64,000 nt of DNA from Sporomusa termitida (GTDB lineage Bacteria; Bacillota; Negativicutes; Sporomusales; Sporomusaceae). Shown one piece after another: positions 12,580-61,749 of the stretch. The translations under genes and the position numbers were made by a program. Numbering within the stretch: position 1 is the first letter of the stretch; every line of letters begins with the position of its first letter. The stretch spans positions 1,860,001 to 1,924,000 of the forward strand of contig NZ_CP036259.1 of NCBI RefSeq assembly GCF_007641255.1, in the 5' to 3' direction. The notes beneath the pieces are model-generated. The model saw only the letters and a list, made by a program, of their open reading frames with translations, was not told the DNA's origin and made no database searches.

Positions 12580-13509
12580 TTGAAGAATAAGAAAATTGCC
12601 GTTGTCATGGGCGGCCCTTCTGCTGAGCGTGAGGTATCATTAAACACCGGGGGCGCTATTTTAGGAGCACTGCAGGAAAAAGGGTATCAGGCCATCGGGA
12701 TTGACCTAAACCCCCGTAATTTTGTCGAACAATTAAAAAACAATAAAATTGATGTGGTGTTTAATGCTGTCCATGGCCTCTATGGTGAAGACGGACTCCT
12801 GCAAGGAACACTGGACATGTTAGGGATACCCTATACCGGTTCGGGGGTGCTGGCCAGCGCTGCTGCCATGGATAAAGCAGTAACAAAACGATTGTTTGTG
12901 GCCGCCGGGATCCCCACGCCCCGCTCACGGCTTTACAGCAAGCAGGAGACCGGGGGGGATTTGCTTAGTGAGATTCAAGGCGAATTTGGCGTGCCGGTAG
13001 TTATTAAGTCAGCTGCGCAAGGTTCGAGTATTGGGGTTACCATTGTGGAAGACCCTGCCGATATTGATGATGCGATAACAGAAGCTTTTAAGTTTAGCGA
13101 CCATATTGTTGTTGAGGAATTCATCAACGGCAAAGAATTGACTGTCGCAATCTTAGGAACCGACCGGCCGGAGGCACTCCCGGTCATAGAAATTGTACCA
13201 GAATCAGGCCGTTATGATTACAGGGCAAAATATACCAAAGGCGCTACCCAGTATATTGTTCCCGCCCGTCTGGCAGTGGAGACTACCGGCCGCGTTCAGC
13301 AAGTAGCGCTTGCAGCCTATAAGCTGTTAAACTGCCGCGGGATTGGTCGTGTTGATGTTATGCTTGATCAGTCTAACCATCCTTACGTACTGGAAATTAA
13401 TACGATACCGGGCATGACAGCTACCAGCCTGGTACCTAAGGCTGCTGCGGCCGTTGGTATTCATTTTGCTGATTTATGTGAGCGGATTCTCCTGACAACC
13501 GTTGATTAG
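12580..13509 (+). CDS. ddl: D-alanine--D-alanine ligase
   Basis: Ddl makes the D-Ala-D-Ala dipeptide used by MurF, with an ATP-grasp fold. It opens with the GGPSAEREVSLNTG motif and has the ATP-grasp core (VIKSAAQGSSIGV, VEEFINGKELT) and a C-terminal EINTIPGMT metal and substrate segment. At 309 residues it is a short-form Ddl. The TTG start lies one base after the murA stop, with GGAGG just upstream inside murA. A strong terminator follows directly, so this is probably the end of the first dcw transcript. Confidence 0.93.
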   Translation: MKNKKIAVVMGGPSAEREVSLNTGGAILGALQEKGYQAIGIDLNPRNFVEQLKNNKIDVVFNAVHGLYGEDGLLQGTLDMLGIPYTGSGVLASAAAMDKAVTKRLFVAAGIPTPRSRLYSKQETGGDLLSEIQGEFGVPVVIKSAAQGSSIGVTIVEDPADIDDAITEAFKFSDHIVVEEFINGKELTVAILGTDRPEALPVIEIVPESGRYDYRAKYTKGATQYIVPARLAVETTGRVQQVALAAYKLLNCRGIGRVDVMLDQSNHPYVLEINTIPGMTATSLVPKAAAAVGIHFADLCERILLTTVD

Positions 13510-13516
13510 CAGTCTT

Positions 13517-13549
13517 GCGGGCAGTGTCGACAGATACTGCCCGCTTTTT
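13517..13549 (+). terminator. Rho-independent terminator after ddl
   Basis: The 9-bp arms GCGGGCAGT and ACTGCCCGC pair perfectly around a 10-base loop and are followed by TTTTT. It closes the murE-ddl part of the cluster. Confidence 0.85.
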
Positions 13550-13572
13550 ACTAGAGCCCGGTTAGACAAGTT

Positions 13573-13963
13573 CCTTCCCGGCAAGTTTCGCTTTAGCCGA
13601 TAGCTAAGCGCCACTAATGCCCCTGCTCCGGCAGCGGCATAAGTGTTGCTAAGCTCCTGGATTGGCTCAACTAAGCCTGGAAGTTCATTCCAATCCTTCC
13701 CGGCAAGTTTCGCTTTATCCGATAGCTAAGCGCCACTAATGCCCCTGCTCTGGCAGCGGCATAAGTGTTGCTAAGCTCCTGGATTGGCTCAACTAAGCCT
13801 GGAAGTTCATTCCAATCCTTCCCGGCAAGTTTCGCTTTATCCGATAGCTAAGCGCCACTAATGCCCCTGCTCTGGCAGCGGCATAAGTGTTGCTAAGCTC
13901 CTGGATTGGCTCAACTAAGCCTGGAAGTTCATTCTAATCCTTCCCGGCAAGTTTCGCTTTATC
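13573..13963. repeat. Three tandem 122-bp repeats plus a 25-base partial copy
   Basis: Full copies start at 13573, 13695 and 13817; a partial copy covers 13939-13963. Copies differ at one or two positions: copy 1 has G for T in the CTTTATCC segment and C for T near the middle, and copy 3 has one C-to-T change at its end. The period is not a multiple of three, so the array is not coding. Each unit can fold: in copy 1, arms 13603-13621 and 13636-13654 pair imperfectly around an inner CTGC/GCAG hairpin, and GGATTGG (13659-13665) pairs with CCAATCC (13690-13696) across the unit boundary. It fills most of the 508-base gap between ddl and ftsQ. Confidence 0.95.
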
Positions 13964-13986
13964 TAACGGCCGATCCGGTGTATAAT
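13958..13986 (+). promoter_or_regulatory. Possible promoter for the ftsQ-ftsZ part of the cluster
   Basis: A perfect TATAAT (13981-13986) lies 31 bases before the ftsQ start. The hexamer 17 bases upstream, TTTATC, is only a weak -35 and lies in the partial fourth repeat copy. The terminator after ddl makes a promoter in this gap necessary or at least likely. Confidence 0.4.
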
Positions 13987-14017: not shown

Positions 14018-14764
14018 ATGCAGACGGCAGAACGCTTAAAGGCAGCCAGGCAGCGGCGTAATTCGACATTTGCAGCCTTGTTGGCGGCTTTGGCATCGCT
14101 GATAGCATTTTTTTTATTTGTTAATTCGCCTTATTTTATTGTAGGGACAGTACTTGTTGAAGGTAATAAGTATATTACGGTTGAAGATGTTTTACAGGTT
14201 GCCGGTGTCCCTGAACAAGTAAATATTTTTAGATTAAAAACGGCAGATATAAAAGACCGTTTGCTGAGTGACCTGCGGGTAGCTGAGGTTAAGGTGGACA
14301 GACGTTTTCCGGCTACTATATCCATCCAGGTCACAGAACGCCAGCCGCTGGCTTTTGTGGCCAGCCAGTATGGTTTTGTCGAAATTGACCGGCAAGGCAT
14401 GGTACTGGCTGCTTTTAAAAACCTTAAAGAGGTAAAAGTCCCTGTTATTACCGGGGTTCGTTTAGGCAATGTATATGTGGGCGACCAGGTAAACAATCCC
14501 GGTCTTGCCAGTGTCCTGACCTATCTTGCGGCCTTGGATGAATTAACTCTCAATCAACTGTCAGAGGTAAATATTAAGTCGCCGGACGAGCTTGTTGCCT
14601 ATACAACACATTCCATAGGCATACGGGTTGGTGACAACCAGCGCCTGGCGGAAAAAGCTATGCTTACCGGTGAGATTTTACAGGAGATTGCAACCAAGAA
14701 ACTGGCTGTCGAATATATAGATCTTAACTATAAATCACCGATTATTAAGCTGCGTGACAGATGA
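14018..14764 (+). CDS. ftsQ: Cell division protein FtsQ/DivIB
   Basis: FtsQ/DivIB is a bitopic membrane protein of the divisome that binds FtsL and FtsB. A short charged N-terminus is followed by one membrane helix (about residues 19-37), a POTRA domain (about 38-108, with FIVGTVLVEGNKY-like start) and the FtsQ beta domain. The length of 248 residues fits Firmicute DivIB/FtsQ proteins. It is preceded by a long repeat-filled gap and a candidate promoter, and is followed by the DUF881 gene with a 24-base spacer. Confidence 0.85.
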   Translation: MQTAERLKAARQRRNSTFAALLAALASLIAFFLFVNSPYFIVGTVLVEGNKYITVEDVLQVAGVPEQVNIFRLKTADIKDRLLSDLRVAEVKVDRRFPATISIQVTERQPLAFVASQYGFVEIDRQGMVLAAFKNLKEVKVPVITGVRLGNVYVGDQVNNPGLASVLTYLAALDELTLNQLSEVNIKSPDELVAYTTHSIGIRVGDNQRLAEKAMLTGEILQEIATKKLAVEYIDLNYKSPIIKLRDR

Positions 14765-60405: not shown

Positions 60406-61140
60406 ATGCGTATTGATTTTATTTCGTTATTTCCCGAGATGTTTACCGGACCGCTCGGTCATAGTATTTTAAAGCGGGCTCAGGCCGGCGGGCTTATCTC
60501 TGTACAGGTGACCAACCCCCGGGATTTTACTTACGATAAACATCGTATTGTTGATGATTATCCCTTTGGGGGGGGATCAGGTATGGTTATGAAGCCTGAA
60601 CCAATATTTCGTGCTGTGGAAAGTGTAGTTAATGCCAATAATACTCTAAATAAACGGGTAATATTAATGTGTCCGGGCGGTCAGGTTTTTGATCAGGCTA
60701 AAGCCCGGGAGCTGGCCGGCTATGAGCAGCTTGTCTTTGTTTGCGGCCATTATGAAGGCATTGATGCCCGGATTCGCCGGCATGTAGTTGATGAAGCCAT
60801 TTCCATTGGTGATTATGTGCTGACAGGCGGTGAACTCCCGGCCATGGTGATTGCTGATGCTGTAGCCCGGATGATACCGGGTGTGCTTGGGGCCAATGAT
60901 GGTGCTCAGCATGATTCGTTTTATAATGGTCTGCTGGAATATCCTCAATATACACGCCCGCGCGAGTTTAACGGCTGGGCGGTTCCCGATATTCTGCTTT
61001 CAGGCGACCATGCCAAAATTGAGACCTGGCGGCGTAAGGAATCGTTGCGGGCAACGCTGGAACGGCGGCCGGATTTGTTGGTTAACGCCGAGTTAAGTCC
61101 GCTTGACCGTAAGCTTTTGCAGGAAATAAGATCTGAATAG
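60406..61140 (+). CDS. trmD: tRNA (guanine37-N1)-methyltransferase TrmD
   Basis: TrmD methylates G37 next to the anticodon and prevents frameshifts. It starts [13 protein letters not shown], has the [13 protein letters not shown] loop and the SAM knot segments [12 protein letters not shown] and [16 protein letters not shown]. It has 244 residues. Its stop codon lies in the first copy of a 16-base duplication that also carries ribosome-site-like GGAGG. Confidence 0.96.
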
Positions 61141-61165
61141 ATCGGAGGCTGAATAGATCGGAGGC
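61134..61165. repeat. Tandem 16-base duplication at the trmD stop
   Basis: TGAATAGATCGGAGGC occurs at 61134-61149 and 61150-61165, with TGAAT of a third copy before the next ATG. Each copy has TAGATCGGAGG, so the ribosome-binding site was duplicated; only the second is well spaced for the ATG at 61171. Confidence 0.92.
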
Positions 61166-61170
61166 TGAAT

Positions 61171-61749
61171 ATGGCGGCGCCTGTATATTTAGGCTTAGTG
61201 CATTATCCCATTTATAATAAAAATAATGAGATAATTACAACTGCGATTACTAATTTTGATATTCATGATATCGCCCGTACTGCGCGGACGTATGATCTGC
61301 TGAAATATTTCATTATCCATCCGCTTGACAGTCAGAAAGCTTTAGCTGAGGAAATTATCAACTATTGGCAGGACGGTTATGGTGGACAGTATAATCCTGA
61401 CCGTAAAGAGGCATTAAGCATAGTGGAAGTGATTCCGGACATTGCGGCGGCAGTCGAGTATATCACGGCCAGAGATGGTGCAAAGCCACTGATTGTGACT
61501 ACCGATGCCCGTAAGTATGCCAATACGGTTTCCTACGGCCGGCTTCGCCGGGAAATAACTGATACCGGCAGGCCATGCCTGCTCTTATTTGGTACTGGCT
61601 GGGGCATGGAGAATTCAGTAATGGAGCAGTTTGATTATATACTGGAACCTATTTATGGACCGGGAAGCTACAATCATTTGCCTGTACGCGCAGCGGCAGC
61701 CATCATTCTTGACCGCTTGCTTGGTGAAACCTGGTGGGAAAATGATTAA
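61171..61749 (+). CDS. SPOUT-type RNA methyltransferase (TM1570-like)
   Basis: The 192-residue protein resembles the Thermotoga TM1570 group of knotted SAM-dependent RNA methyltransferases that often follows trmD. The C-terminal knot is suggested by LLLFGTGWGMENSVME and IYGPGSYNHLPVRAAAAIILDRL, with the PVRAAAAI pattern of SPOUT enzymes. The target base is unknown. GGAGG precedes the ATG. It lies between trmD and rplS. Confidence 0.8.
   Translation: MAAPVYLGLVHYPIYNKNNEIITTAITNFDIHDIARTARTYDLLKYFIIHPLDSQKALAEEIINYWQDGYGGQYNPDRKEALSIVEVIPDIAAAVEYITARDGAKPLIVTTDARKYANTVSYGRLRREITDTGRPCLLLFGTGWGMENSVMEQFDYILEPIYGPGSYNHLPVRAAAAIILDRLLGETWWEND

Follow-up and report, generated by a model that had tools for sequence, protein, structure and literature searches.

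A tandem array between ddl and ftsQ of Sporomusa termitida as a probable expansion of a bcr1-like interspersed repeat

Sequence comparisons suggest that the tandem array located between ddl and ftsQ of Sporomusa termitida has very likely arisen by recent tandem expansion from a short mobile element that is non-autonomous and resembles the interspersed repeat bcr1. The array lies in a stretch of 64,000 nucleotides (contig NZ_CP036259.1, positions 1,860,001 to 1,924,000), hereafter termed the window, and its units belong to a dispersed family of two-hairpin elements that are bounded by TTTAT.

The array between ddl and ftsQ

Tandem Repeats Finder delimits the array to positions 13572-13963 with a period of 122, 3.2 copies and 98% matches (score 763), which makes it the strongest tandem array of the window by a wide margin. 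The ORF listing shows no gene-sized ORF across the array, in line with a preliminary description of this DNA, which had reported a non-coding array of near-identical units differing by one or two bases. Correspondingly, two substitutions separate unit 1 from unit 2, and a single one separates unit 2 from unit 3. The same description counted three units and a partial fourth; the counts stand, whereas the phase does not. The unit in its biological phase extends from TTTAT to TTTAT (13592-13718, 13714-13840 and 13836-13962), and the partial unit is a 3′ remnant at the upstream side (13573-13591), which matches the ends of the three units (13695-13713, 13817-13835 and 13939-13957) base for base. 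The units of the window are approximately 126 bp long, compared with a family standard of approximately 131 bp. The locus comprises the following features.

12580..13509, + strand: ddl (D-alanine-D-alanine ligase), the upstream gene; 309-aa ORF, named in the preliminary description, with a conserved tail in orthologues
13517..13549, + strand: terminator-like hairpin of ddl; 12-pair stem with 8 GC, then TTTTT; position matched in sister species
13573..13591, + strand: 3′ end of a truncated fourth unit, covering the last part of module B; then TTTAG
13592..13718, + strand: repeat unit 1, TTTAG to TTTAT, module A followed by the module B hairpin
13714..13840, + strand: repeat unit 2, TTTAT to TTTAT
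13836..13962, + strand: repeat unit 3, TTTAT to TTTAT
13958..13962, + strand: right-hand TTTAT; aligns with the TTTAT of several sister species, 18 bp from TATAAT
13981..13986, + strand: TATAAT, the -10 of the presumed ftsQ promoter; conserved in Sporomusa ddl-ftsQ gaps
14018..14764, + strand: ftsQ, the downstream gene; 248-aa ORF, orthologues in the genus 74-82% identical

The terminator that had been placed before the array was recovered as the 12-bp stem with its T-run at 13517-13549, and the -10 element directly 3′ of the array as TATAAT at 13981-13986; the latter is missed by a plain sigma-70 scan because of its weak -35. When folded as RNA, a unit forms a long hairpin of -51.6 kcal/mol as compared to -33.4 kcal/mol in dinucleotide shuffles (z -5.5), and the alternative register across the unit junction likewise exceeds its shuffles (z -3.8 to -4.9). 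The excess holds in both registers with DNA parameters too. Thus, both the long imperfect hairpin and the junction hairpin proposed before are supported. An assembly artefact, which had been considered as an objection, is unlikely: the 5.3-Mb genome assembles into 2 contigs, and the short array consists of units that can be told apart by SNPs. Elsewhere in the window, at 61133-61171, we observed a short perfect tandem repeat of CTGAATAGATCGGAGG in 2.4 copies.

A dispersed family of two-module elements

Searching the genome and its relatives for the unit, as the preliminary description had proposed, revealed a dispersed repeat family and hence more than that description could see. Weak relatives of the array were found by blastn at unrelated places in sister genomes, and the covariance model R1 was built from an alignment of 11 units sharing the two-hairpin anatomy. 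R1 scores units 1, 2 and 3 of the array at 118.6 bits (13593-13718), 123.6 bits (13715-13840) and 124.2 bits (13837-13962), respectively. With up to 150 candidates scored per genome, four Sporomusa genomes yielded 128, 95, 86 and 52 matches at E up to 0.5. At E up to 0.001, S. malonica retains 60 of its 95 matches and S. silvacetica 39 of its 52; at the same threshold we obtained 139 matches in Clostridium ragsdalei, 28 in Pelosinus fermentans JBW45, 25 in Pectinatus haikarae and 10 in Syntrophomonas wolfei subsp. methylbutyratica, each species being represented by one genome. All these counts are somewhat high, as some matches represent the antisense strand of one and the same near-palindromic copy. 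Within the class Negativicutes, 44 of 150 genomes contain matches at E 0.001, and within the phylum 25 of 199 do so at E 1e-6; the remaining 174 phylum genomes, without a match at 1e-6, serve as a negative control. Collections of plasmids and phages contained no copies of the element, the only hits being three phage matches of 25 bases at chance level.

The genomic placement of the copies was followed in an 800-kb sample from a sister genome, 89% of which consists of called coding sequence. Fifteen of 16 copies lie outside called ORFs, to within a few bases of the ORF ends, while the sixteenth is located inside an apparently spurious ORF of 119 aa. The copies occur in both orientations, with neither a strand bias relative to genes nor a consistent downstream gene. 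One element copy, located upstream of a response-regulator-like gene, lies approximately 1.3 kb from a cobalamin riboswitch (L016:1-152, 66.6 bits).

Every full copy consists of two adjacent hairpin modules, A followed by B. Module A reads TTATCCGAT-GACTAA ... CTAAGTC-CCTGGATAA, and module B reads CGACTAA ... CAAGTCT. Accordingly, the standard copy of 131 nt can be written as TTTATCCGATGACTAA - stem - CTAAGTCCCTGGATAA for module A, then CGACTAA - stem - (C)AAGTCTNNNTTTAT for module B. The palindromes are internal, and the element ends, TTTATCCGA and AAGTCTNNNTTTAT, represent a direct repeat of TTTAT. In the 800 kb of the sister genome the copies fall into size classes of approximately 60, 131 and 148 nt. 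The 60-nt class contains only module B between a TTTATCCGA start and a TTTAT end, and the 148-nt class carries an extra ATACCCCTACGGGCACAGGC segment. The short variant was noted at L273:15182-15259 and L306:6411-6521 and is perhaps a minimal mobile form; in the long variant, present at L283:7288-7436, L290:18780-18926 and L276:10788-10934, the inserted ATACCCCTACGGGCACAGGCGAGC is nearly invariant between copies.

The proposed structure is strongly supported by covariation. In an alignment of 79 copies fitted to the structure, 94.4% of the proposed-pair cells contain standard pairs, compared with 78.9% in shuffles, and 27 of 34 pairs show compensatory changes on both sides. Double-change cells number 385 as opposed to 104 in shuffles, the covariation score amounts to 0.413 as opposed to 0.146, and every one of the slid controls gave far lower values than the proposed structure. 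One pair was seen as CG, GC, AU and UA in 31, 19, 11 and 10 copies, respectively. Moreover, the same paired changes can be discerned by eye in the sequence-only alignment A5, and RNAalifold applied to 11 sequences yielded a structure that agrees. The unpaired motifs of the internal loops are nearly invariant among the copies.

Such covariation together with the near-invariant loop motifs, as well as the very stable RNA folds of the units, would also be compatible with a functional structured RNA family, either cis-regulatory or trans-acting, which occurs in many copies by chance and whose array constitutes a multi-unit RNA upstream of ftsQ. In B. cereus, about one in two bcr repeats is expressed, in many cases as a portion of a UTR (PMC3446304). 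A functional RNA is expected to show more GU pairs than AC mismatches on its sense strand, and in the 30 best-scoring copies we indeed counted 23 GU pairs and 9 AC mismatches; however, R1 itself favours GU when ranking. All 79 copies show no excess (GU 67, AC 62), and the sequence-only alignment, with two GU-dominant positions left out, gave GU 46 and AC 60. The strand test therefore reveals no clear RNA signature and leans weakly towards a function at the DNA level, the decay of dead copies being expected to yield both mismatches equally. Furthermore, no Rfam family matched the element, a relaxed threshold producing only chance matches, the orientation and downstream genes of the copies in the 800 kb do not follow a regulatory pattern, and the occupied and unoccupied sites described below indicate insertion at TTTAT. 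We therefore regard a structured RNA as decidedly unlikely. A riboswitch or leader was dropped owing to the missing orientation bias, and a 'skipping-rope' RNA was neither reported by cmscan nor did the literature search return anything on it.

Insertion at TTTAT and the ftsQ promoter region

The view of the family as a mobile element draws on its boundaries. Among 70 copies, TTTAT is present at the right end in 60 and at the left end in 63, the latter value being biased upward since a pattern containing the left TTTAT had been used to select some of these copies; the bases outside are variable. In a Sporomusa genome each strand carries TTTAT approximately once every 538 bases, so that these frequencies lie well beyond chance expectation. 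The complement of TTTAT, ATAAA, includes a TAA, and several copies on the minus strand accordingly start at the stop codon TAA of the gene upstream.

Occupied and unoccupied sites could be compared directly in Pelosinus, where the copy L097 interrupts another repeat, AACCACAAAGG. The occupied site reads GGGGGTTA-TTTAT-element-TTTAT-ATTTTTCGTG, whereas uninterrupted copies of AACCACAAAGG, one in the same genome (L264, GGGATTATTTATATTTTTTGTG) and one in a relative (L271), contain one TTTAT each. In agreement with this, a second unoccupied site (locus 109) contains a single TTAT. At loci 112 and 115, which represent diverged intergenic regions, the element is absent and the exact boundary is blurred. 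The Pelosinus loci L097, L109, L264 and L271 also revealed a second, more abundant interspersed repeat, AACCACAAAGGCACAAAGG...CCTTTGTGGTTCAA, which is palindromic, approximately 100 bp long and present in dozens of copies per Pelosinus genome, and which sometimes hosts the inserted element.

At the ddl-ftsQ locus, the gap in eight other Sporomusa species is 94-103 bp long and contains neither the array nor any element. Several of these gaps read TTTAT-TTAGTGGACAATACGTTG-TATAAT, the window TTTAT-CTAACGGCCGATCCGGTG-TATAAT, with the same distance of 18 bp, while the left side of the empty site is blurred by sequence divergence. The TTTAT that precedes the ftsQ -10 was thus probably the point of entry of the element. 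Since the array entered at, or is bounded by, a TTTAT with the 18-bp spacing, the promoter geometry appears unchanged; the right-hand TTTAT retains the original -10 spacing, so that the insertion was probably near-neutral for ftsQ.

This arrangement bears on the proposal that the array is a plain local tandem duplication acting as a contingency locus, the copy number of which would tune ftsQ expression. The near identity of the units and their position directly upstream of the ftsQ -10 would fit such a role. However, the unit belongs to a dispersed family, which is incompatible with a purely local origin, and none of the sister species sampled has the array. Moreover, the spacing of the core promoter is fixed by the last TTTAT to the -10 regardless of copy number, and judging from the sequence the core promoter geometry of ftsQ should be independent of the number of units. 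A contingency locus is therefore highly improbable, and a copy-number effect on ftsQ is not favoured.

In contrast, the recent expansion or homogenisation suggested in the preliminary description fits the data: the units are 98-99% alike, their nearest relatives elsewhere reach approximately 80%, and no other sampled Sporomusa contains the array. The other copies in the window's own genome are eroded, scoring at most 54.5 bits with R1 compared with 118-124 bits for the array, and the nearest relative outside this genome, found in another genus, is approximately 81% identical over 86 bases. The array thus represents the most recent, or the most completely homogenised, member of the family in the window's own genome. 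Two of the eroded relatives, one chromosomal (L081, G000:C1:3982997) and one on the second contig (L082, G000:C2:17996), also share their left flank (aacaagtctgtaaagac...), as if copied together. Tandem pairs of two units each are present in S. silvacetica and P. fermentans JBW45, in the same register as in the window and with one shared TTTAT.

Possible mobilisation and relation to known repeats

For the preferred reading, that of a non-autonomous mobile element, we envisage an enzyme supplied in trans that would recognise the folded hairpins, probably in single-stranded DNA or as a cruciform, and would attach the element at a TTTAT, so that this motif flanks it at either end. If another copy inserted at one of the flanking TTTATs, or if slippage occurred between the two, a head-to-tail array in the same register with one shared TTTAT could result, and unequal exchange may homogenise the units. 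No mobilising gene emerged from the searches: in 800 kb of one sister genome we found no larger element with matching ends and a gene inside.

As a special case of this reading that names the enzyme, the units could be palindromes of the REP type that RAYT (Y1) transposases mobilise, or else relics of IS200/IS605 elements. Y1 enzymes recognise hairpins with conserved mismatches, and Y1_Tnp genes are present in all 10 genomes tested. Moreover, the family shares with REP/BIME sequences the imperfect intergenic palindromes with conserved mismatches, some of them in tandem. On the other hand, the sequence up to 1.5 kb from each of 30 Y1-transposase genes, including the sole Y1 gene of a copy-rich Pelosinus genome, is free of element copies, no autonomous element with matching ends emerged in the 800 kb, and the copy number does not track the number of Y1 genes, the genome with 128 matches having 2 of them. 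In addition, REPs are 20-40 bp long and carry a GTAG or CGTC tag, the mark of REP superfamilies (PMC3733652), whereas the consensus of the family lacks such a tag at the foot of the palindrome. Hence, we consider this assignment unlikely.

Two other classes of repeats were compared. MITEs are defined as non-coding, interspersed sequences of 70-300 bp next to genes (PMC3733652); the family resembles bacterial MITEs such as RUP, NEMIS, ERIC and Nezha in size range, lack of coding capacity, interspersion and gene adjacency, but it is devoid of terminal inverted repeats of 15-30 bp, its ends being the TTTAT direct repeat. The imperfect palindromes with conserved unpaired bases are also reminiscent of integron attC sites, which have the same properties and work as folded single strands. 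However, no cassettes or integrase context were seen, and the RYYYAAC/GTTRRRY boxes do not frame the units. An attC-like reading of the array itself was rejected, as GTTAGAC just left of it and ATCTAAC just right of it are in the wrong order for attC.

The closest parallel is provided by bcr1. This repeat is not known to have coding capacity, nor is an enzyme known that mobilises it. Together with bcr2 and bcr3, bcr1 forms group A of the repeats of the B. cereus group; it is 147-167 bp long and intergenic, with tens of copies and up to 130 per genome, a TTTAT motif is tied to mobility, a common fold is predicted, and copies are found in UTRs (PMC6542083, PMC2267715, PMC3446304). The family likewise has TTTAT at both ends and a single TTTAT at the unoccupied site, is short, non-coding, intergenic and present in many copies per genome, and possesses a conserved secondary structure. 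In contrast, the bcr repeats are described as restricted to the B. cereus group (PMC6542083), whereas the family occurs in Negativicutes and Clostridia and combines A and B modules into elements of 60, 131 or 148 nt. By these descriptions, rather than by sequences, the family appears to work like bcr1, and it is not filed here as a member. If the TTATCCGA...AAGTCT ends and the GACTAA/CTAAGTC loops were common to the family and bcr1-bcr3, they would form one superfamily. Tentatively, one might go further and imagine a previously undescribed, phylum-wide superfamily of two-module hairpins, moved to TTTAT sites by an enzyme in trans that reads the folded strand, with bcr1 as its aerobic branch and arrays formed by re-insertion into the element's own TTTAT; we deem this broader scenario possible but rather doubtful.

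Neither literal-sequence searches, which returned short chance hits in unrelated papers, nor topic searches retrieved a description of the family from the literature covered, which excludes most subscription papers. The repeat, absent from Rfam and the searched literature, reaches more than 100 copies in some genomes, and its hosts are acetogens, sulfate reducers and syntrophs, including Sporomusa, Pelosinus, Clostridium ragsdalei, Desulfosporosinus and Syntrophomonas. As the TTTAT signature is common to bcr1, these organisms offer an independent host set for seeking the enzyme that moves such repeats. For annotation and assembly it is relevant that copies are located at stop codons and near promoters, where they can be mistaken for regulatory RNAs or for locus-specific contingency repeats.
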